From: a virus
Direction: 5' to 3' (one strand)
DNA length: 47,380 bases
IMG/VR virus record: IMGVR_UViG_3300017917_000934
Coordinates: 1 to 47,380 of that record
Numbering within the stretch: position 1 is the stretch's first letter; every line of letters begins with the position of its first letter. Positions 4,231-21,330 of the stretch are shown piece by piece. The position numbers and the translations under genes were made by a program. The notes below the pieces were generated by a model, which worked only from the letters and a program-made list of their open reading frames with translations, did no database searches and was not told the origin of the DNA.

Positions 4231-4238
4231 TATTTACT
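4231..4238 (-). promoter_or_regulatory. Late-type promoter octamer AGTAAATA
   Basis: Reads AGTAAATA on the minus strand, 21 nt before the ATG at 4209, with TAGGAT between. It overlaps the 3' end of the upstream gene (stop 4237). It departs from GATAAATA at the first two positions. Confidence 0.35.
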
Positions 4239-5415
4239 ATCGTTTGGCGCGAGGTTCTTGATCTCTGGTTGGGCGAATATCTGACACTGGTGTGCGCTGT
4301 GCTATGTCTTGTATTTTTTGATCTAAATCAACTTGGCGCTGTGCTGACGCTACTGCGTCTGCTTTAGTTTTTGCTGTGCTAGCACGTCCTTTGGCTAAAG
4401 TAACTTTCATAGCATTACTTTGTGTATCAGTCCAACTTGGAAAACTTACAGTCACTAACCCAGCACTGTTAGCCATATCTTCTGGTGTGCCAATATACAG
4501 AAATTTAGTTACGGCGCCATCCATAATGATAATGCCGTCAAACTCTTTTTGTTTTTTGTATTCAGTAAAACTAGCCTTAAGCATTTCTTTCTTAAGTTCT
4601 TGGCCGTTAATGTTACCTGCACTGTCCACTACCTTACTTGTAATTTGTTCTACAGGATAGTCCGGGTAGTGCATTTTTAACATGGCTGTCAAGGCTTTTT
4701 TTACCTTGTCCCCACTGTCAAAGTAATTGCTAAAAGAACTCATGTCTAATTTAGGATTAAAGTCTAAGGGATTTAGTTGTTCACCTGCTTTATCTGGCAT
4801 TAGTTCATGTAATATTGGTACAAATTCACGTTGAAAACGTCCTGCTAAACTCATACTACCTGCAGGGCCTAATCTACCATTTTCGCCTGCCTTAAGTTCA
4901 ACCTTAGTACCTGTGATATCCAAATCGCCTGGTGCGCCTCGACGGTTAACACTAGGACTCATAATGTCCAATAGATATTCACCCTTGCCCACGTCACCTA
5001 ATTCACCAATTTTACCAGAAATATCTTTGTACAATGTACCTTTAATTTTGTCAAATACAAATCTGTAATCACTGTCTACTATGCTGTCAAAACTATGTAT
5101 AGCACCTGGTGTTAACAATAATTTTTCGTCCAGGATACCATCTTTACTAAGTTTGTCTAAAAACTTGCGTACTTCTTCTTCAGGAATTTCTGCTTCGGCT
5201 AAAGCACGGAGAAAAGTATTACTTACGATGTCTTTGTACTTGCGAGCATCAGCAAAACTAAAAACATCTTTCTTAATACCGTAACGATTGGTAAATTTAA
5301 GGATATCCTTAAGATCACTTTCGTCAGGAATCTTTTCAATTTTAGTTTCGATTTCAGAACGAACTGCTTCAGGAGTTTCGTTTAATTGGTCTAGTTTATT
5401 AAGTATATCGCGCAT
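4237..5415 (-). CDS. Virion-type protein with PD-(D/E)XK-like motif (392 aa)
   Basis: No function is recognised with certainty. The N-terminus MRDILNKLDQLNE resembles other N-termini in this genome that end in (L/I)xE, the T4 prohead protease signal. Around residues 145-180 the segment KGEYLLDIMSPSVNRRGAPG then DLDITGTKVELKAGENGR places GDLD before VELKAG. This is the spacing of a PD-(D/E)XK nuclease core (D, then ExK). The C-terminal 60 residues are Ala/Lys/Gln-rich and probably flexible. Transcription probably starts at the octamer 7 nt before the ATG. No Shine-Dalgarno is present, so the mRNA would be nearly leaderless. Late expression and the N-terminal peptide suggest a capsid-internal protein. 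Confidence 0.6.
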   Translation of the reverse strand: MRDILNKLDQLNETPEAVRSEIETKIEKIPDESDLKDILKFTNRYGIKKDVFSFADARKYKDIVSNTFLRALAEAEIPEEEVRKFLDKLSKDGILDEKLLLTPGAIHSFDSIVDSDYRFVFDKIKGTLYKDISGKIGELGDVGKGEYLLDIMSPSVNRRGAPGDLDITGTKVELKAGENGRLGPAGSMSLAGRFQREFVPILHELMPDKAGEQLNPLDFNPKLDMSSFSNYFDSGDKVKKALTAMLKMHYPDYPVEQITSKVVDSAGNINGQELKKEMLKASFTEYKKQKEFDGIIIMDGAVTKFLYIGTPEDMANSAGLVTVSFPSWTDTQSNAMKVTLAKGRASTAKTKADAVASAQRQVDLDQKIQDIAQRTPVSDIRPTRDQEPRAKR

Positions 5416-13052: not shown

Positions 13053-15302
13053 TTATAAGCCTGCTAATCGTTTAATATCTTGTACGCTTTCGTATTTTGG
13101 TTCTACCGGATTGCCAAATTTGTCCATTACTTCGCCTTTGCCTAATTCTAAACGTGCCTTGAGATTTTCAATTCGATCTTCTAATTCATTTGCTTTTACT
13201 GTGTCGTGTTTAGACAATGCTTGTTGATATAGTTGCTCTAGTTTTTGTAATTGAGGACTATTTGCTGTACTTTGTTTATCTAAATATGCGTTACCTGCTA
13301 GCGCACCAACTAATGCAGCACCAGCACCTAATTTTTGTAACCCTGTTAGACCTTCTGACAGTGCTTGTATTATTTCTTCTTTGGTCTTGCCATATTTTGC
13401 CGTAAATTCTTCGTCTGTCAGTTCGCTAAGATCAATATCCATTTCTTTCATTCTTCCTTCCTCTACTTCCTCATGATCACACACACACTGATCCGCTGGA
13501 CGATCACAGGCATCGCAATAGGCCTGTTGTGCATGTGTTAAAGGGCTAGAACTGTCGGCAGGTGCTCTATAGCCATAATCTTCATCTAATTCAGGGTAGT
13601 CAACACCAACTTCACGGTACACTTCACGGACCATGTTGCTAATGTCGCTTGAGCCTAGTTCATCTACAGGTGCATGGAAACTTGCTACATCAAGTGAAGC
13701 ATTCATAACACCTTCTGGGCCTGCTTTTCTAAGTAATTCTGTATGTTGTTCAATATTGTTTAAGATTCTACGCACGATCGCTGATTGTATAGATTCAATA
13801 TTTGCTAATAAGTCGTCTTGATCATCTTCTTCGTATACATTACCATAACTGCCATAAGAACTTTCTGCAAGGTCTGCCGCTTTTTCTTCTGCCATGTCAC
13901 GTAATTCTGAATTTGAGTAACTTTGTGCCTTTAGAGAATCTAAGTTTAAGTAGTCCAAAAGTTCACTTCTACTCATATTTTCAATTGGTGTGTCGCCTGT
14001 GTGGCTTTCTGCTACTGCATCATCCATGTCACTATGATCAAGTTGATCGTATACATCTGGAAGATTGGCCTGTATCCAAGCCATGATTGTTTCTCTAGCG
14101 TCTGCGTCTGGGTCAACATTACTCAAATCTAATAATTGATCATAAAGTTCGTCATTGCCAATAATATTGTATAGTGCACCTGTAGCGTTTTCTGCGTCAA
14201 CACCAACAGGTAGTGGTTCTGCTAAAAGTTTTTCTAAATCAACTATTTGATCTTCTGTTTCTGGATATGCCCAAGTACCTTCACTTAGATTTGATGCCCA
14301 TCCTTCAAATGCCTCTGCAAATTTATTTGTTTTCTTCATACTATAAGCCTTGTATACTAAAGGTAACGCATCATCCATGCGTTCATTGTAACTGCGTTTA
14401 ACAAATCGTTCTCTTAGAGAGTCAACATCAACTTCTGGAATATAACTAGTGCTAGTATGAACAAATTGTTCAGCGCACTTGCGATAACCTTTAGGACCGC
14501 TCATACGATTTAGTGTGTCTTTTAATAGACCATGATATTCAAATGCGGCTTCTACCATACGCTGTGTTTCTTCGTCTTCAAATACACGACGCATCATAGC
14601 AATCTTAAAGTTTTTAAGTTTGCTGCATTCATCCGCCATTTCAGTAATGTGTTTGCCTAGATCATCGTGCGGGTCACCACCTTCTTGTACGTGGCGTGCC
14701 ATAGCACGTGCAAAACGCAGACTATTGTGTGGTAGTTTGATACGTTCGCCTAGTTCTGTTTCTAAGAAAATAGCACGAATTTTTCTAGCACGAGCACCTT
14801 TAACTTCTGGATTAACTTGGTCGCTGTGTCGTATAATAATACGCACTGGTCCGTCTTTTTCGTAACTACTACGACTAGTACCGTATAGTTTGCTTTCACT
14901 AATAACTTCGTCTTTATCGTAGGTACTGTCTGCTTTGCTGACCTGTTTGATATCACGAACTTTTAGTGTACTGCGTGTGATGTCGCGAGGTTCAAAACTT
15001 AATAGGTTACGTTTAGCAAATTCACGCAGTTCTTTTAAGAAGTTATACCAATCACGGCGTTGTTCATCACTTAGGTCATGGCTAATGTTTTTACTAAAGT
15101 AAACTTTAAGACTGATTTCGTCTACGATACTTATAGTAACGTTACCATAGTTATGACCATCTACAACGTAGTCAAAGTTGAAAAAACGTGCTCGCTCTGG
15201 ATCTTGTGTTGCGTTGGCTTCTTCGTCACCAAGGCTCACGTCCTCAAAACGATCGCGGATCTTTTCAAATAAACCTTCTGCTATTTTATCTATTTCTCTC
15301 AT
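13053..15302 (-). CDS. Large virion-type protein with zinc-knuckle-like motif (749 aa)
   Basis: Conserved in style among marine T4-like phages but without known function. The N-terminus MREIDKIAE ends in a prohead-protease-like IxE. The middle has the segment FEGWASNLSEGTWAYPETED followed by LPVGVDAENATGALYNIIGN, a pattern I associate with structural proteins of these phages. A cysteine cluster YCDACDRPADQCVCDH (C596, C599, C606, C608, H610) could bind zinc. A Gly/Ala-rich hydrophobic stretch (655-674) might contact a membrane. The protein ends in IKRLAGL, a motif shared with two other head-region proteins. It lies directly after gp17. The ATG has no Shine-Dalgarno and is exactly 5 nt from a late octamer, so a leaderless mRNA is predicted. 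Probably a head-internal or ejected protein. Confidence 0.7.
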   Translation of the reverse strand: MREIDKIAEGLFEKIRDRFEDVSLGDEEANATQDPERARFFNFDYVVDGHNYGNVTISIVDEISLKVYFSKNISHDLSDEQRRDWYNFLKELREFAKRNLLSFEPRDITRSTLKVRDIKQVSKADSTYDKDEVISESKLYGTSRSSYEKDGPVRIIIRHSDQVNPEVKGARARKIRAIFLETELGERIKLPHNSLRFARAMARHVQEGGDPHDDLGKHITEMADECSKLKNFKIAMMRRVFEDEETQRMVEAAFEYHGLLKDTLNRMSGPKGYRKCAEQFVHTSTSYIPEVDVDSLRERFVKRSYNERMDDALPLVYKAYSMKKTNKFAEAFEGWASNLSEGTWAYPETEDQIVDLEKLLAEPLPVGVDAENATGALYNIIGNDELYDQLLDLSNVDPDADARETIMAWIQANLPDVYDQLDHSDMDDAVAESHTGDTPIENMSRSELLDYLNLDSLKAQSYSNSELRDMAEEKAADLAESSYGSYGNVYEEDDQDDLLANIESIQSAIVRRILNNIEQHTELLRKAGPEGVMNASLDVASFHAPVDELGSSDISNMVREVYREVGVDYPELDEDYGYRAPADSSSPLTHAQQAYCDACDRPADQCVCDHEEVEEGRMKEMDIDLSELTDEEFTAKYGKTKEEIIQALSEGLTGLQKLGAGAALVGALAGNAYLDKQSTANSPQLQKLEQLYQQALSKHDTVKANELEDRIENLKARLELGKGEVMDKFGNPVEPKYESVQDIKRLAGL

Positions 15303-15315: not shown

Positions 15316-16887
15316 TTACATTATATAAAATGGCATAGGCTCAACAATATCTTCTAGGCTATCTTTCATAGTATAGTCTAACTGACTGTCAAAACTCTGC
15401 AAAACTTGTGCCATACGCACTATAAGCAACATACTCATAACCAAGTCATCTGTTTCGCCTGGTTTGGCCGCAAAACTAGCGTTATGCGCAACAAAGGTTT
15501 TTAGTTCAGATATAAGACTACGGCTTACTATAGTCATACGCTTGCTTTCAATTAGATTTTTTAGTTTAGCACAGGCGGCTATTTTTGATTTATTTGTAGT
15601 ATTGAATCCTTTGCGGAATCTACGACCACCCGAACTCATATTTCTAGGTTCACTTAAGAATATACCACGTATGTTTTCTTCACCTATTTCTGCTACACAA
15701 ATTAGTGCGGCTTCTCCTACTGTGTTGTTTTCTATTGAGTAGTAGATATTGTTTTGATTTACTGTTTCACTGATGTATTTGGTAATTTCTGTAAGTATAC
15801 CTACTTGCTGTTGTATGGGTGTGCGATTATGTTGCCACTCTGCTACCTGGCGGAATGTAGGTAATTCAAATACTTGAATACCTGCAGGGTCGCCACCAGT
15901 ACCTAAACTAGGGTCTAAGGCCACTGCGTAAGTGTATTGTGGTTCTGGCTTTTTATACCAGCGTACATGCCCTTGGCGTTCTATAGGATCTATGCCTGCC
16001 ATTTCAACTAAATGACTAGGATTGATTAGTGTTTCATCCCAAATAATAGATTCACAATCCCTCTCTCGACGGAAACGTTCATCACCTAATTGCGCACGTT
16101 GCTGTTCAGCCCACTTGTCATCACGATCTGGGTGCTCTTTCCAGTAACTTCTAAATGCTTTGAATCCATTTATACCTATTTCTGTAGGCTCACCATACTC
16201 ATCTACGCATTTGTTGGCGCCTTTCCATAGGGTAGCAAACTGGTCTTCATCACTGTTAGGTGTTGAAGTAATAATACATTTACCACCAGTTGCTAGTGTG
16301 GGACTAATAGAGGTCCAAAATTCTCGTCCTATGGTAGGGCGAACGAACGCAAACTCGTCACAGTATAGTAATGATATAGACATACCACGACCTGTGTTTT
16401 CTGTTGTTGTAGCACTTACTATACGACTACCATTATCAAAATCGATACTACCTTTGTTATAACTCACAGCACCTGCACGTATAAAGTCTGGTACGCTTTC
16501 ATAAGCGTAACGAATACGTTGCATGATTTCTTGTGAGCCTGTATATTTGTGTGCGGCAATTAGAATAGTTGAATCAGGCACAAACATGGCGTACCATAAT
16601 AGGTATCCTGCGGCTGACGTTGACTTACCTGTTTGCCGGGGCATTAGCGATATGCTATAGCGATAGTTATGATATGTATGGATTAAGCGTTTTTGATAGT
16701 CAAAGGGTTCATACAGCATACGTCCTTTTGTAGGGTGTTGTATGTAAAAGTAGTTACTCATAAAATATTCTGGACCTGTAACAGGATCCGAACACTTTAC
16801 GAATTCTTGTATTTGTGCCTGAGTAAAAGCCGTTTGCGTATGTGGCTTTTTAACTAAGACGTTATCTGTACCTTTTGCTGCTGCCAT
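15316..16887 (-). CDS. 17: gp17, terminase large subunit
   Basis: The packaging motor: an N-terminal ATPase translocates DNA into the prohead and a C-terminal nuclease cuts the concatemer. The 523-residue protein shows Walker A MPRQTGKST (82-90), Walker B SLLYCDEFA (D177, E178), the coupling motif TSTPN (207-211), and RNase H-like nuclease residues in ALDPSLGTGGDPAG (D325), IENN (E386) and GETDDLVMS (D480, D481). T4 gp17 is 610 residues; the N-terminus is shorter here. The start at 16887 has no Shine-Dalgarno but has TATAAGTA exactly 5 nt upstream. The small subunit gp16 is not adjacent, being five genes upstream. Confidence 0.95.
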   Translation of the reverse strand: MAAAKGTDNVLVKKPHTQTAFTQAQIQEFVKCSDPVTGPEYFMSNYFYIQHPTKGRMLYEPFDYQKRLIHTYHNYRYSISLMPRQTGKSTSAAGYLLWYAMFVPDSTILIAAHKYTGSQEIMQRIRYAYESVPDFIRAGAVSYNKGSIDFDNGSRIVSATTTENTGRGMSISLLYCDEFAFVRPTIGREFWTSISPTLATGGKCIITSTPNSDEDQFATLWKGANKCVDEYGEPTEIGINGFKAFRSYWKEHPDRDDKWAEQQRAQLGDERFRRERDCESIIWDETLINPSHLVEMAGIDPIERQGHVRWYKKPEPQYTYAVALDPSLGTGGDPAGIQVFELPTFRQVAEWQHNRTPIQQQVGILTEITKYISETVNQNNIYYSIENNTVGEAALICVAEIGEENIRGIFLSEPRNMSSGGRRFRKGFNTTNKSKIAACAKLKNLIESKRMTIVSRSLISELKTFVAHNASFAAKPGETDDLVMSMLLIVRMAQVLQSFDSQLDYTMKDSLEDIVEPMPFYIM

Positions 16888-16923: not shown

Positions 16924-17235
16924 TTACCAGGGCGTTTCGCCTGTTAGATATGGTTTTGAGAACCACAAGCGGAACCATTCTGGGCTTCCGGGTTGAATAT
17001 TATTTTCTTGTTGGTATTGTATATTTTTGTTAGCAGTGATACTCATATTACTACCATCTGTAACTACACTACCCTCACCTTTGTATTCTTGTAGGCGACC
17101 AATATTATTATTGCTTAACCCTGCCAAACGTTGCATGTCATGTAAAGGGTCTTGATCGTCTAGTACTGCTTCTGGTATCAAATCCTCTGTTTTATAGAAG
17201 TTTGATGAGGTCAATTTAAGTTCTTTAGACACCAT
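16924..17235 (-). CDS. Conserved hypothetical head-region protein (103 aa)
   Basis: Not assigned. From the ATG at 17235 the protein is 103 residues; a TTG at 17259 would add 8 without support. It contains MQRLAGL at about 34-40, a motif also found in the 589-aa and 749-aa proteins. It ends with PGSPEWFRLWFSKPYLTGE, a C-terminal signature I associate with a small conserved protein next to terminase in marine T4-like phages. The middle is Asn/Gln/Gly-rich and probably unstructured. It overlaps the end of the 120-aa gene by 11 nt and lies 36 nt before gp17. A packaging or head-assembly role is inferred from position only. Confidence 0.65.
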   Translation of the reverse strand: MVSKELKLTSSNFYKTEDLIPEAVLDDQDPLHDMQRLAGLSNNNIGRLQEYKGEGSVVTDGSNMSITANKNIQYQQENNIQPGSPEWFRLWFSKPYLTGETPW

Positions 17236-17587
17236 ACTTGTTCTTCTTTGGTTTAGCAACAGGACTGACAGAGTTTACTTTATCTATTTCTTCGCTGCCT
17301 TTAGTGCTATGGGTATGTGTTACTAGGCCAAATTCTTTACGAGCATGATTAATTATTTCTTGATCAGCCTCGCTATAACCAATGGTGGTAAACTCACTGC
17401 CCACAGGGCCCAATTTATCATCTACATCATTTGGGCTTTTTGCTAATGCGACACCAAATCTATAGGCTATATAAGGATGACTATTGTTGTCAAGATAGGG
17501 ATAACTAGTAATGTTACTTACGGCCTGAGTAGTTGCCTTGCGTAACTTACCTCGTGCTGCTTCAGAAATAATTTCGTTAATTTTCAT
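17225..17587 (-). CDS. Putative internal head protein with targeting-like N-terminus (120 aa)
   Basis: The start MKINEIISE-A closely resembles the capsid-targeting sequence of T4 internal proteins (MKTYQEFIAE-A), including the IxE site cut by the prohead protease. The following 70 residues (YPYLDNNSHPYIAYRFGVAL then AKSPNDVDDKLGPVGSEF) form a conserved domain I associate with marine T4-like phages, of unknown function. The C-terminus is basic (KPKKNKYGV). It starts 4 nt after the 117-aa gene and overlaps the 103-aa gene by 11 nt. If the peptide works as in T4, the protein is packed in the prohead and may be delivered with the DNA. Confidence 0.7.
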   Translation of the reverse strand: MKINEIISEAARGKLRKATTQAVSNITSYPYLDNNSHPYIAYRFGVALAKSPNDVDDKLGPVGSEFTTIGYSEADQEIINHARKEFGLVTHTHSTKGSEEIDKVNSVSPVAKPKKNKYGV

Positions 17588-17590
17588 TGT

Positions 17591-17944
17591 TTACCACTTA
17601 CGGCATGACCAGTAACGTGCTTTTGTACGTGGTCCTGGATTATCACAGTTATGACGTGCTCTAAAACTTTTACGTCTTGCTGGATTGCTTTTCTTAATGC
17701 GCATGTTAGGATCACCAAAATTTACTTTTTTGATGTTACCAGTTGAGGGATCCTTAACATAAACCTTAAACTTCTTAACATCGCCACGCATAGGCTTACC
17801 AAGAGGTACTTTGCGACCACGATATTCTGCTTCATAAAGACCGTCTTCATCATACCATAAATCTCCGTAGGCTTCGTAGAATTCGTCGCCATGATAGATT
17901 TCTTCTGCTATGATAGACTCTGCTAAGAATTCATTAAACTTCAT
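17591..17944 (-). CDS. Putative internal head protein, basic C-terminus (117 aa)
   Basis: The N-terminus MKFNEFLAE-S resembles the T4 capsid-targeting sequence and carries LAE and IAE cleavage-type sites within the first 14 residues. An acidic stretch (YHGDEFYEAYGDLWYDEDG) is followed by KKFKVYVKDPSTGNIKKVNF then GDPNMRIKKSNPARRKSFRA and RHNCDNPGPRTKARYWSCRK. This strongly basic, two-cysteine C-terminal domain is conserved in marine T4-like phages and is of unknown function. The basic domain suggests DNA binding inside the head. AAAGGAC precedes the ATG. It lies 2 nt after the 589-aa gene. Confidence 0.7.
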   Translation of the reverse strand: MKFNEFLAESIIAEEIYHGDEFYEAYGDLWYDEDGLYEAEYRGRKVPLGKPMRGDVKKFKVYVKDPSTGNIKKVNFGDPNMRIKKSNPARRKSFRARHNCDNPGPRTKARYWSCRKW

Positions 17945-17946
17945 AA

Positions 17947-19716
17947 TTAGTCCTTTATTTCACTAATTAAACTTTCGTATGCTTTCCATAGTGCTTCCTC
18001 TTTAACAGCCATTGGGTTATCACCTGGATATTCTTTCTTGTATTGTTTCTTAGCACGATTTAAGTCTGCACCTGCAGGAATAGCAGCATCAACACCAGCA
18101 GTTTCTTCACGAGGTGTATTCGTATATTCTACATCACGGGCTTCATCAACTTCTTCGCCTTCATCACTTGCTAGTGCTTCAACTTTTGGCATACCTGCTA
18201 GTTTGCGAATTAGATTCATAGCATCTTCTTCGCCATTGGCAGAGATGTTAATGTTTACATCTTCTTTAACAGTGTATTTCTTACCGTCAACTTCAAATTC
18301 TTTAGCACCTGCAGCACGTGCTTTGGCTAATGCTCCAGAGAATTCGTTACCTTCACCCATAGTGTCTTCATCTAAGTCTTCGTCGCCTTCATCGTTGAAA
18401 ACTTCAACTTCAGCGTCATCTGGGTCCATACCACGTTTAATAAGTTCATGATAGCGTTCTAATTTTGCTTCATCGTCGAGTGCTTCATCCATTGTGTCTG
18501 GACTTTCTTCTACGTTCACTTCGTTATATACTTCTGTTTCTTTAACTGGCAAACCTGCTAAACGAGCGATTTCATCTAGTTCTTGTTGTGCGTCCATTAC
18601 TGGTGTTTCCTCTACAAATGAATTCATTGGGCTACCACACTCTGCAATTTCTTTGCAATAGTGACTGTATGATGTAGCAACATCACCTAAGAAATCAGGA
18701 TCTAACATTAAGTTTCTTGCTACAGTTGTTTTCATATGTTGTGATAACAACTCATCATATACTGCTTTACGGAACTCATCACCTGCTGTGTTTAGCGCAG
18801 GATTCTTATCAGCAAGTGCTTTAGCAATACGTTCGTATGTATAGTCACTTTCTTGAATCATTACGCTTTCTTGTAGTTTACCTGCTTTATGTGCTTTCCA
18901 TGCTGTAGCATAAGCAATACCTTTTTCTTTCTTAGATAGTTTGCCGTCTTTAGCATAACCTTTCTTAATATGCTTGACCATACGTTCTGCTTTGGCGCCT
19001 GGTGGTGCTACTTCATCCATCTTGTCGTGTTTAGCACGTAGTTTGGCCATTTTCTCTTTGCTAGCGCCTTCACGTCCTGCTTGTTGTAAGGCTTTCATAC
19101 CTTCTTTGCCATACTTCTTTTTACCTAAGTATGCTTGTAGACCGCTTTCATCTACTTCGTCTTTTTCATCATCTTTCTGTGCAGATCCGCCGTAAGCACG
19201 ACCTTTAACAACACGTGCGGATGATTTCTTATCATCATACTCGCCCTTTTCAGCACGCTCATCTTCTTGTTTATCTTTTAATGCTTGTAGACGTTTACGT
19301 TTTTCTGCTTTGCTTTTATCTGTTTTTGCTGGCTCTGCATCTTTAGCCGCATCTTTCATTGGCTCATCAGTATCACCATCATCATCTAAATCTAAGAAAT
19401 CTGGTTTTGCTTCTTCACCTAATTTTTTACCTGCGGCGGCGGCTTTTTGGAATTTCTTTTTACCGTATTTTTTACGACCAATAGCGGCTGCCACTGCTTC
19501 TGGATCCTCAGCACTACCACCTTTAGCAATGGCTGCTACTGTTTTCTTAAAACCCATGTATTTTTCTTCTAGGTTCTTAACAGCCTCCATGATACTGCCA
19601 CGTGGTTCAACGTTTTCGTATGTAGGTTCTGTTTTGACATCCTCTTTAACTGGAGTCATTTTAGGATCTAGGTTCTTAAATATACCTAGAATATCATACA
19701 TTTTTTTATCGCTCAT
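17947..19716 (-). CDS. Highly charged head-core-type protein (589 aa)
   Basis: The sequence is very rich in Lys, Glu, Asp and Ala, mostly helical or disordered. It has the EF-hand-like FLDLDDDGDTDEPM (107-120), two related GKKKYGK-type basic segments (about 80-98 and 197-215), and a block GAKAERMVKHIKKGYAKDGK then LSKKEKGIAYATAWKAHKAG which I associate with virion proteins of marine T4-like phages. Two copies of a short motif, ARLAGLPVKE (384-393) and RKLAGMPKVE (504-513), occur in its second half. Many (L/I)xE sites suit cleavage by the prohead protease. AAGGACAA precedes the ATG. This resembles a scaffold or internal head protein; T4 gp22-type homology cannot be claimed by eye. Confidence 0.6.
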   Translation of the reverse strand: MSDKKMYDILGIFKNLDPKMTPVKEDVKTEPTYENVEPRGSIMEAVKNLEEKYMGFKKTVAAIAKGGSAEDPEAVAAAIGRKKYGKKKFQKAAAAGKKLGEEAKPDFLDLDDDGDTDEPMKDAAKDAEPAKTDKSKAEKRKRLQALKDKQEDERAEKGEYDDKKSSARVVKGRAYGGSAQKDDEKDEVDESGLQAYLGKKKYGKEGMKALQQAGREGASKEKMAKLRAKHDKMDEVAPPGAKAERMVKHIKKGYAKDGKLSKKEKGIAYATAWKAHKAGKLQESVMIQESDYTYERIAKALADKNPALNTAGDEFRKAVYDELLSQHMKTTVARNLMLDPDFLGDVATSYSHYCKEIAECGSPMNSFVEETPVMDAQQELDEIARLAGLPVKETEVYNEVNVEESPDTMDEALDDEAKLERYHELIKRGMDPDDAEVEVFNDEGDEDLDEDTMGEGNEFSGALAKARAAGAKEFEVDGKKYTVKEDVNINISANGEEDAMNLIRKLAGMPKVEALASDEGEEVDEARDVEYTNTPREETAGVDAAIPAGADLNRAKKQYKKEYPGDNPMAVKEEALWKAYESLISEIKD

Positions 19717-19718
19717 TT

Positions 19719-20354
19719 TTATTGTCCTTGTGCTGGGCTAGGGATCTTGTTTTGTTTGCTACCTACTGGACTTGCATCACCTGTAGGAACATCGTTAGTA
19801 GTTTTACCGTATGCTGGGTCTGCTTGTCCACCAATGGTTTTATCATTACCTTCTACTTCAAATTGTGCTGGCTTAGTTAATTCTTTAAGAATTGTTTCAG
19901 CACCAGCATAGGCTTTACTAGCGGCTTTTTGATCTGCGTCCTGTGCTGGATAAGGTTGTGTAAGTACATTTTCGCCTTGCACATATTCACGCAGTTCGCT
20001 TTCACCTTCTACATTCCAACGCCAAATTTCTTCTGGGTGGTACTTAGGCACAACCACAACTTGCGCTGCAGAACAGCCCAAACGTTCGCTAACAATAGCA
20101 CGTAACTGTGCATCATTTAATGGATATTTGAAACTTGCATCCATTAAAAATATTTCGCAATTAGTCATGCTTGGGAAGTCAATGTCGTTTGATTTGATTG
20201 GTAACGTTTTAGGGGCCGTAATGCTGTCAACAACATATCCTGCTAACCCTGCTTTTAACACATCCATCTTGTCCTTAGGGTCACAGTTTGCAACCTTAAT
20301 ACGGAATTCATAGAGTTTTTGTGTTTCACTAAGATATTGTAAAAAATTCTTCAT
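19719..20354 (-). CDS. Putative head protein with targeting-like N-terminus (211 aa)
   Basis: Function not recognised. The start MKNFLQYLSE-T again resembles a capsid-targeting peptide with an LxE cleavage site. Residues 15-125 look folded (alpha/beta: YEFRIKVANCDPKDKMDVLK, NCEIFLMDASFKYPL, AQLRAIVSERLGCSAAQVVV). The C-terminal 80 residues are Gly/Pro/Asn/Lys-rich and disordered, ending in PSPAQGQ. Residues 20-115 recall a small alpha/beta ligand-binding or ferredoxin-like fold. The gene heads the run between gp16 and gp17 and has its own late octamer 21 nt upstream. Confidence 0.6.
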   Translation of the reverse strand: MKNFLQYLSETQKLYEFRIKVANCDPKDKMDVLKAGLAGYVVDSITAPKTLPIKSNDIDFPSMTNCEIFLMDASFKYPLNDAQLRAIVSERLGCSAAQVVVVPKYHPEEIWRWNVEGESELREYVQGENVLTQPYPAQDADQKAASKAYAGAETILKELTKPAQFEVEGNDKTIGGQADPAYGKTTNDVPTGDASPVGSKQNKIPSPAQGQ

Positions 20355-20393: not shown

Positions 20394-20888
20394 TTATTTT
20401 TTGTTTAGAATTTGTTTTAGCAATTCATTACGGTCAATAACTACACCCTGACCGTCTTCTGCTTCTATTATACGTTCACCGTCATTTTTCTCTTCTGCTT
20501 GCTTGATCTGCATGTCTAAGCGTGCTTTTTTAAGTTGCAGATCAACCATACGTAATTTTTTATCCAACTTGGCTTGTTTGGCTGTGATAGCATGACCCAA
20601 CAGTGTGCCTGCTGTAGCAAGAATGTGTCCGCTAAAACGTGCTTCAACATTCATGCCTAGGTCAATTAGGTCTTGAAACTTTTCTTTGGCTAGATCGCTT
20701 AGTTCATCTAGTTCTTTGTCGCTAACATCTAGATCGTTTACATAGGGCAGAGCAGCGTCTATCTTATCAATAGCAGTGTCTACGGCCGCAATTATCTCAC
20801 GATTTTCCTCAATAGTATGTTCTGCTTCTTCTGCTGTTACTTCTTCAGCAGGTGGTAAATTAAATAGTTCTGAAAGTTTTTGTGTCAT
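20394..20888 (-). CDS. 16: gp16, terminase small subunit
   Basis: T4 gp16 forms a ring that recognises DNA and stimulates the gp17 motor. This 164-residue protein has the same length as T4 gp16. It starts with the marine-type motif KLSELFNLPPAEE and is almost wholly helical, with a long coiled-coil middle (QAKLDKKLRMVDLQLKKARL) and a basic C-terminus (ELLKQILNKK). The first 45 residues are acidic. There is no clear Shine-Dalgarno; GTTAAATA lies 7 nt before the ATG. It follows gp4 by 10 nt. In T4 gp16 is adjacent to gp17, but here five genes of about 3.5 kb intervene. Confidence 0.8.
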   Translation of the reverse strand: MTQKLSELFNLPPAEEVTAEEAEHTIEENREIIAAVDTAIDKIDAALPYVNDLDVSDKELDELSDLAKEKFQDLIDLGMNVEARFSGHILATAGTLLGHAITAKQAKLDKKLRMVDLQLKKARLDMQIKQAEEKNDGERIIEAEDGQGVVIDRNELLKQILNKK

Positions 20889-20895
20889 AGTATAC

Positions 20896-20903
20896 TATTT
20901 AAC
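20896..20903 (-). promoter_or_regulatory. Possible late octamer GTTAAATA, 7 nt before gp16 ATG
   Basis: GTTAAATA on the minus strand differs from GATAAATA at one position and has the same 7-nt distance to an ATG without Shine-Dalgarno as the octamer at 5423. Confidence 0.3.
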
Positions 20904-21330
20904 GTTTGAGATTTTTAAAGATATCGTATTCGGTTACTACACGAAAACGCATATTGTTGGCCTTGCACCAAGCATCGGCTGCGGCCCATTTGGCCATATT
21001 GATTGCAACACTTAATTTGTCTCTTGGTCCGCGAGCACTTTCCATAGTGGTTTCTGCAAGAGGTTTAATCTCAACTACTTCTGTATGTTGGCGTTTATTT
21101 GCATCTTGATAGACTATAATAAAATCAGGCACGTAAATAGTTTGTTTACCTAGCACAGGATTAAAATAAGGTATCTTAATGCCTTCACTTGCCCACTGTG
21201 TTACTGCTGGATTATTATCGCAAAAGTTCATAAAAGCAAACTCCCAACTACTACGATATGTTGGTACACGTTTACCTATGTACTTTTCAGGGTGTTTGAC
21301 TGTGAATTTACCGTTAGCGTATTTGGCCAT
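20899..21330 (-). CDS. 4: gp4, head completion protein
   Basis: T4 gp4 acts on the packaged head before tail joining and has a TnsA/PD-(D/E)XK nuclease-like fold. The 143-residue protein (T4 gp4 is 150) has GKRVPTYRSSWEFAFMNFCD with the family's conserved R-S-x-W-E. It then has IYVPDFIIVYQDANKRQHTE and VVEIKPLAE, giving the PDF and ExK catalytic pair near residues 74 and 94. It then has WAAADAWCKANNMRFRVVTE, a typical end. Its ATG is 1 nt from the stop of the preceding gene, so translation is coupled. The next gene is gp16. Confidence 0.88.
   Translation of the reverse strand: MAKYANGKFTVKHPEKYIGKRVPTYRSSWEFAFMNFCDNNPAVTQWASEGIKIPYFNPVLGKQTIYVPDFIIVYQDANKRQHTEVVEIKPLAETTMESARGPRDKLSVAINMAKWAAADAWCKANNMRFRVVTEYDIFKNLKR

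Follow-up and report, generated by a model that had tools for sequence, protein, structure and literature searches.

Few phages, T4 foremost, have been studied to the point that the genetics of cargo loading into the head are known in detail. In T4, the internal proteins IPI, IPII and IPIII and the protein Alt bear an N-terminal tag of 9-10 residues that starts with MK, has hydrophobic or aromatic residues at its targeting positions and closes with a cleavage-type (L/I)xE (PMC9026906, PMC3012670). The genetics of IPIII assign targeting mainly to positions 4 and 7, processing to positions 8 and 10, and an Asp at position 10 stops processing and leaves targeting unaffected (PMC9026906). In the giant phages phiKZ and SPN3US an S77-like protease cleaves many internal head proteins on the C-terminal side of Glu (PMC5694885, PMC10052503). 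Here we describe tags of the T4 type on three genes of the IMG/VR virus record IMGVR_UViG_3300017917_000934, a genome fragment of 47,380 bases that was analysed at its full length (the window). All three lie on the minus strand between gp17 and a putative gp16, exactly where a sequence-only reading had placed three T4-like N-termini (aa, amino acids; hyphens within tags and junctions mark predicted cuts):

15316..16887, minus strand: gp17, terminase large subunit, landmark (PHROG terminase, E=1e-120)
17225..17587, minus strand: predicted 120-aa internal head protein, nine-residue tag MKINEIISE-A at 17561-17587, about 50 homologous open reading frames
17591..17944, minus strand: 117-aa precursor, tag MKFNEFLAE-S at 17918-17944, candidate second site LYE-A after residue 38
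19719..20354, minus strand: predicted 211-aa internal head protein, ten-residue tag MKNFLQYLSE-T at 20325-20354, conserved (24-29 of 29 homologues, varying by position)
20394..20888, minus strand: 164-aa putative gp16, landmark, assigned from its location alone (the PHROG family it matches has no known function)

Three neighbouring proteins that bear no such tag share another short motif, here called LAG, with the C-terminus of the prohead scaffold of relatives. We propose, at a rough probability of 0.45, that the clade to which the window belongs loads its head via two separable short signals: a T4-type N-terminal tag cleaved by gp21, and the previously undescribed, scaffold-mimicking LAG, through which non-scaffold proteins would either share or contend for the site where the C-terminus of the gp22 scaffold docks. 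The window's terminase is 54% identical to those of the Pseudomonas jumbo phages PA5oct and MIJ3 and about 50% identical to those of Sinorhizobium phage Phosso and Agrobacterium phage Atu_ph07; our set of relatives comprised 80 environmental sequences with a terminase 69-90% identical to it. The gene order gp16, tag, LAG, variable slot, tag, LAG, gp17, LAG largely recurs over 39 loci, in most of which the 120- and 211-aa genes keep their position, and we propose that the interval between gp16 and gp17 is a conserved prohead-core cassette of a clade of PA5oct-related, jumbo T4-like phages.

The tag pattern M[KRN]x2-3[DEQHNRKS][FIYVLMW][ILFVM]xE, with an expectation derived from internal positions, matched three of 14 testable ATG+[KRN] starts in the window against 0.09 expected (Poisson P=1e-4), and 25 starts across six genomes against 3.8 expected (P=4e-13). 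The pattern was composed with the window already in view, and conservation is a weightier test than these chance counts. In the 211-aa family the two T4 targeting positions are occupied by Phe (position 4, 28/29 homologues) and by Tyr or His (position 7, 29/29), which places the family among bearers of the T4 tag; position 8 is mostly Leu or Ile, and position 10 is Glu in 24/29. The few members with Asp or Gln at position 10 fit the behaviour of Asp-10 in T4. The 120- and 117-aa tags represent a nine-residue variant, in which the hydrophobic residues are shifted one place earlier. Glu5 and Glu9 are each kept in 27 of 29 members of the 120-aa family, and in the 120- and 211-aa families alike the terminal Glu completes the (L/I)xE consensus of gp21 cleavage. 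Bodies in the 120-aa family are 25-74% identical, its tag MK[IV]xEI[IV]xE persists, like that of the 211-aa homologues, where body identity is only 25-35%, and the alignment gaps start directly after the tag's Glu. The sequence closest to the 120-aa tag is the propeptide MAKINELLRE-S of the T4 vertex protein gp24; gp24 is a shell protein, whereas the tag bearer in the window is a small basic protein (isoelectric point, pI, of the body 9.1).

AlphaFold2 models the tags as short helices and predicts a ferredoxin-like fold for residues 12-110 of the 211-aa protein, with a disordered tail. A fold search with this model returned generic ferredoxin-like matches (ribosomal S6, PII, HPPK; one at E<0.001) together with the protein's own viral family; a match to Ip7 was weak (E 0.008) and is not relied on. 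The model of the 120-aa protein is too poor for a fold search (pLDDT, predicted local distance difference test, 62), and this protein had no match among cultured phages. The 120- and 211-aa families and the gp68-like core proteins (L109, L110, PA5oct gp332) show a similar C-terminal VNxxSPV/L tail; a simple count of a common C-terminal SPV tail was not above expectation.

The 117-aa precursor consists of the tag, an acidic spacer (residues 10-38) and a basic mature domain (residues 39-117, 17594-17830) that matches phrog_7595; the pI of residues 41-117 is 11.3, and two of the three tagged mature proteins are basic. In relatives, the basic domain is fused to quite dissimilar N-terminal parts, many of which start with a T4-like tag (MKTLHDYISE, MKTFKDYLTE, MKINEIVLTE, MNLRQYITE and MKIRDVIVE on homologues in the same slot). 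A Glu precedes the domain in 22/22 extended homologues, and the junction reads [LIVM]xE-[AGS] in 21 of the 22; among 20 distinct junctions P1 is always Glu and P3 is Leu, Val, Met or Ile in 19, with P2 and P4-P10 unconstrained. Homologous phrog_7595 proteins of marine phages, the siphophage CRP-901 and the podophage HTVC026P, have neither tag nor spacer and begin exactly at this junction (M-ATYKGK, M-AKYKGR), where the T4-like versions have LxE-A. We read LYE-A as a second gp21-type site, which would release residues 39-117. Untagged in small phages but with a tag and a predicted cut site in T4-like ones, the domain illustrates how a phage may convert an ordinary protein into head cargo. A sequence search of the PDB with the 117-aa protein gave zero matches. 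In Methylophilales phage Melnitz-3 (L165:1342-3294) a domain homologous to the 117-aa protein forms the C-terminus of a single 650-aa protein that starts with MKKFSEIIEA and has a cytidylyltransferase-like domain and DUF5824.

Close relatives, whose gp17 is 83-87% identical to the window's, encode a gp21-type S77 protease. Seven relatives show the T4 order of portal (gp20), two small core genes, S77 protease, scaffold and gp23-type capsid protein; a relative's protease scores 95 bits against PF03420 (Pfam Peptidase_S77), the PA5oct capsid protein scores 325 bits against PF07068, and the major capsid protein of the relatives begins with a gp23-like propeptide ending in HLME-TATSG. The earlier claim of capsid targeting and gp21 cleavage is well supported by the conservation of the tags, the T4 genetics at matching positions, this protease and a mass-spectrometry mark on the PA5oct homologue of the 211-aa protein; on these grounds all three proteins probably carry capsid-targeting tags and undergo gp21 processing. 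The T4-type propeptides of the 211-, 117- and 120-aa proteins would direct co-assembly into the prohead core, and the phage's putative S77 protease, a gp21 homologue, would then cut after (hydrophobic)-x-Glu. A further cut of the 117-aa protein at LYE-A would free a basic domain of 79 residues that likely stays with the packaged DNA. The capsid-targeting principle of T4 is already known, and what is new is its setting and the second motif: the tags carry T4-type capsid targeting over to a large environmental clade of jumbo phages, and they predict exact cut sites that are checkable in existing mass spectra.

As a refinement of this explanation, we favour the view that the mature proteins remain in the head as DNA-organising or terminase- or portal-linked factors and are not effectors. 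It is suggested by the fixed site next to gp16 and gp17, the strong conservation, the basic mature domain of pI 11.3 and the co-occurrence with proteins that bear the scaffold motif; the poor 120-aa model counts against it. In the case of the 120- and 211-aa proteins, we consider a contribution to the core, to the organisation of DNA or to packaging more likely, and the basic domain of the 117-aa protein would fit DNA contact.

The second putative signal occurs in the following proteins of the window:

13053..15302, minus strand: 749-aa virion-protein homologue (phrog_13484, virion structural, 3.5e-23), LAG profile 23.4 bits
16924..17235, minus strand: 103-aa protein (111 aa from a TTG at 17259), LAG HDMQRLAGL at 17116-17142, profile 18.8 bits
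17947..19716, minus strand: 589-aa acidic protein (pI 5.0) without N-terminal tag, LAG motifs, profile 18.1 bits

The extreme C-terminus of the 749-aa protein, QDIKRLAGL (13056-13082), is the C-terminal motif of the scaffold. LAG is the C-terminus in most members of the 749-aa family (QMRKIAGLK), and it also ends the scaffolds of the seven relatives and of PA5oct (NVIDIKRLAGLK, VEELRRLAGIK). In the 589-aa protein it stands at residues 381-389 (DEIARLAGL, 18550-18576) and about 501-509 (NLIRKLAGM, about 18190-18216), and 45/45 homologues have one to three copies each; in the 103/111-aa family it lies near the N-terminus and is kept in homologues at varying distance from the start. Atu_ph07 has the motif at the position corresponding to the 103/111-aa gene (MDIERLKILAGL), and Phosso at the C-terminus of its 749-aa homologue. 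A profile trained exclusively on eight scaffold C-termini matched three of the 49 window genes, namely those listed above, and none of the shuffled proteins. BLAST between the LAG proteins revealed no convincing similarity outside the motif, searching the literature for the string RLAGL brought up no paper on phages, and in Pfam searches of the window the tagged and LAG proteins all remained below the curated cut-offs. The start of the 589-aa family, MSxxNIYDILGKLxGL, resembles a degenerate LAG; the homologue in L068 has MTFFYDLNKKLAGI.

Whether LAG is a second docking signal of the prohead core, with a putative partner, we regard as an even call from the sequences at hand. The 589-, 103/111- and 749-aa proteins, which have no tag, would be recruited by it, and, as the gp22-type scaffold likewise ends in LAG, a single prohead partner would serve as dock for scaffold and cargo alike. 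If so, LAG would be a second address label that could help to predict what virions contain and to load foreign proteins into heads. Alternatively, the motif, which is short and helix-like and has only a putative partner, might reflect chance or an ancient homology of the scaffold and the other proteins and no docking signal at all. This seems rather unlikely to us, because the families, whose proteins are otherwise dissimilar, differ in whether LAG is C-terminal, internal or close to the N-terminus, and because profile matches of at least 16 bits fall nearly all within the LAG-bearing families.

PA5oct and MIJ3 (Wroclawvirus, Arenbergviridae) resemble the window in gene order around gp17. The 211- and 749-aa proteins have homologues there, and LAG occurs within gp281 and as the end of the scaffold. 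Three PA5oct proteins have an electrospray ionization tandem mass spectrometry (ESI-MS/MS) mark in the database record, which we infer to denote virion proteomics: gp282, the 211-aa homologue; gp281, the positional counterpart of the 589-aa gene, with two LAG motifs; and gp278, the 749-aa homologue. Unlike the window, these phages lack equivalents of the 117- and 120-aa genes in the interval from gp16 to gp17, and their gp282 has no cleavable Glu. Elsewhere in PA5oct (NC_071039.1, 260677-262300) the adjacent gp103-gp105 all have MK/RLxE-like starts with Glu at the tag end, and two of them are MS-marked.

The sequence-only reading had added the 749-aa protein, with its start MREIDKIAE, to the set of tag bearers. 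It is a homologue of virion proteins, but the proposed mechanism does not stand, since its putative signal differs and is C-terminal. The homologues have Asp, Gln, Ser, Thr or Ala in place of the Glu, and a conserved helix continues uninterrupted past this position (IAQA, ISTA, IASA, VATE); without a conserved (L/I)xE, this N-terminus is ruled out as a capsid-targeting tag, and the claimed set holds for the 211-, 117- and 120-aa genes.

Several observations weigh against the two-signal model. No capsid, scaffold or protease genes, that is, no gp21, gp22 or gp23 of its own, were found in the 47-kb window fragment (a Pfam PF03420 search of the window gave no match, but its controls were silent as well, so that it is uninformative). 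Strict tags are few in some relatives and absent in one of them (G003, 0). PA5oct has weaker tags: its gp282 starts with MKSFRDYYDA and has no Glu, and tag and MS status show no significant association (6/93 vs 4/176, P=0.10). Weaker profile matches in larger genomes are near the shuffled background, and LAG is absent from the scaffolds examined of T4, S-RIM2, phiM9 and Aeromonas 65.2.

A different fate of the tagged proteins was implied by the sequence-only reading, namely that they are ejected with the DNA and possibly act first on the host or its defences like T4 IPI; IPII and IPIII act in this manner too. The tags are of the same kind as in the T4 internal proteins, two of the mature proteins are basic, and the clade may ship effectors elsewhere: in one relative (G015 266855-270148, L158:6855-10148) four consecutive genes with MR..EF..E tags have the look of an effector cassette, encoding an unknown protein, a DUF6321 protein, a weakly RegB-like RNase and a tandem GNAT acetyltransferase. 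The tags do mark enzyme-like cargo elsewhere in the clade, and the effector idea may hold for other genes. For the three proteins considered here it is improbable and finds no support; a part in head structure, DNA condensation or packaging is no less likely for them. The T4 internal proteins are poorly conserved (PMC9026906) and their locus is hypervariable, whereas the 120- and 211-aa genes belong to a syntenic core in dozens of diverse phages, stand beside the terminase in most of the 39 loci and do not have the character of hypervariable, dispensable cargo; an IPI-like role is disfavoured for both because these positions are conserved. The 117-aa protein differs from the T4 proteins by its second site, effector function is not indicated, and podo- and siphophages have its domain in untagged form. 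None of the three could be linked to a defence system, and searches of Pfam and PHROGs revealed no similarity to known inhibitors or defence proteins, which leaves the suggested anti-defence role unsupported.

That the tags are mere amphipathic start helices of related families, with neither targeting nor cleavage, as the 749-aa N-terminus exemplifies and the helical AlphaFold2 models would allow, is very improbable, given that unrelated bodies in the 117-aa slot bear the tag as well, that P1 is fixed as Glu with alignment gaps immediately behind it, and that a second LxE-A site coincides with a domain boundary.

One further protein, likewise named earlier as similar, has a possible variant of the tag:

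4237..5415, minus strand: 392-aa protein, MRDILNKLDQLNE-T, possible variant tag outside the strict pattern

The N-termini of its homologues vary (MRKLINLLLSE, MRDLIEIVTES, MRKFIDLIKLTE). The window also encodes UvsX, UvsY, a gp32-type single-stranded DNA-binding protein and tail genes, and at 20899-21330 a gp4-like head-closure gene shows a match to a TnsA-like endonuclease domain (PF08722, 1e-20).

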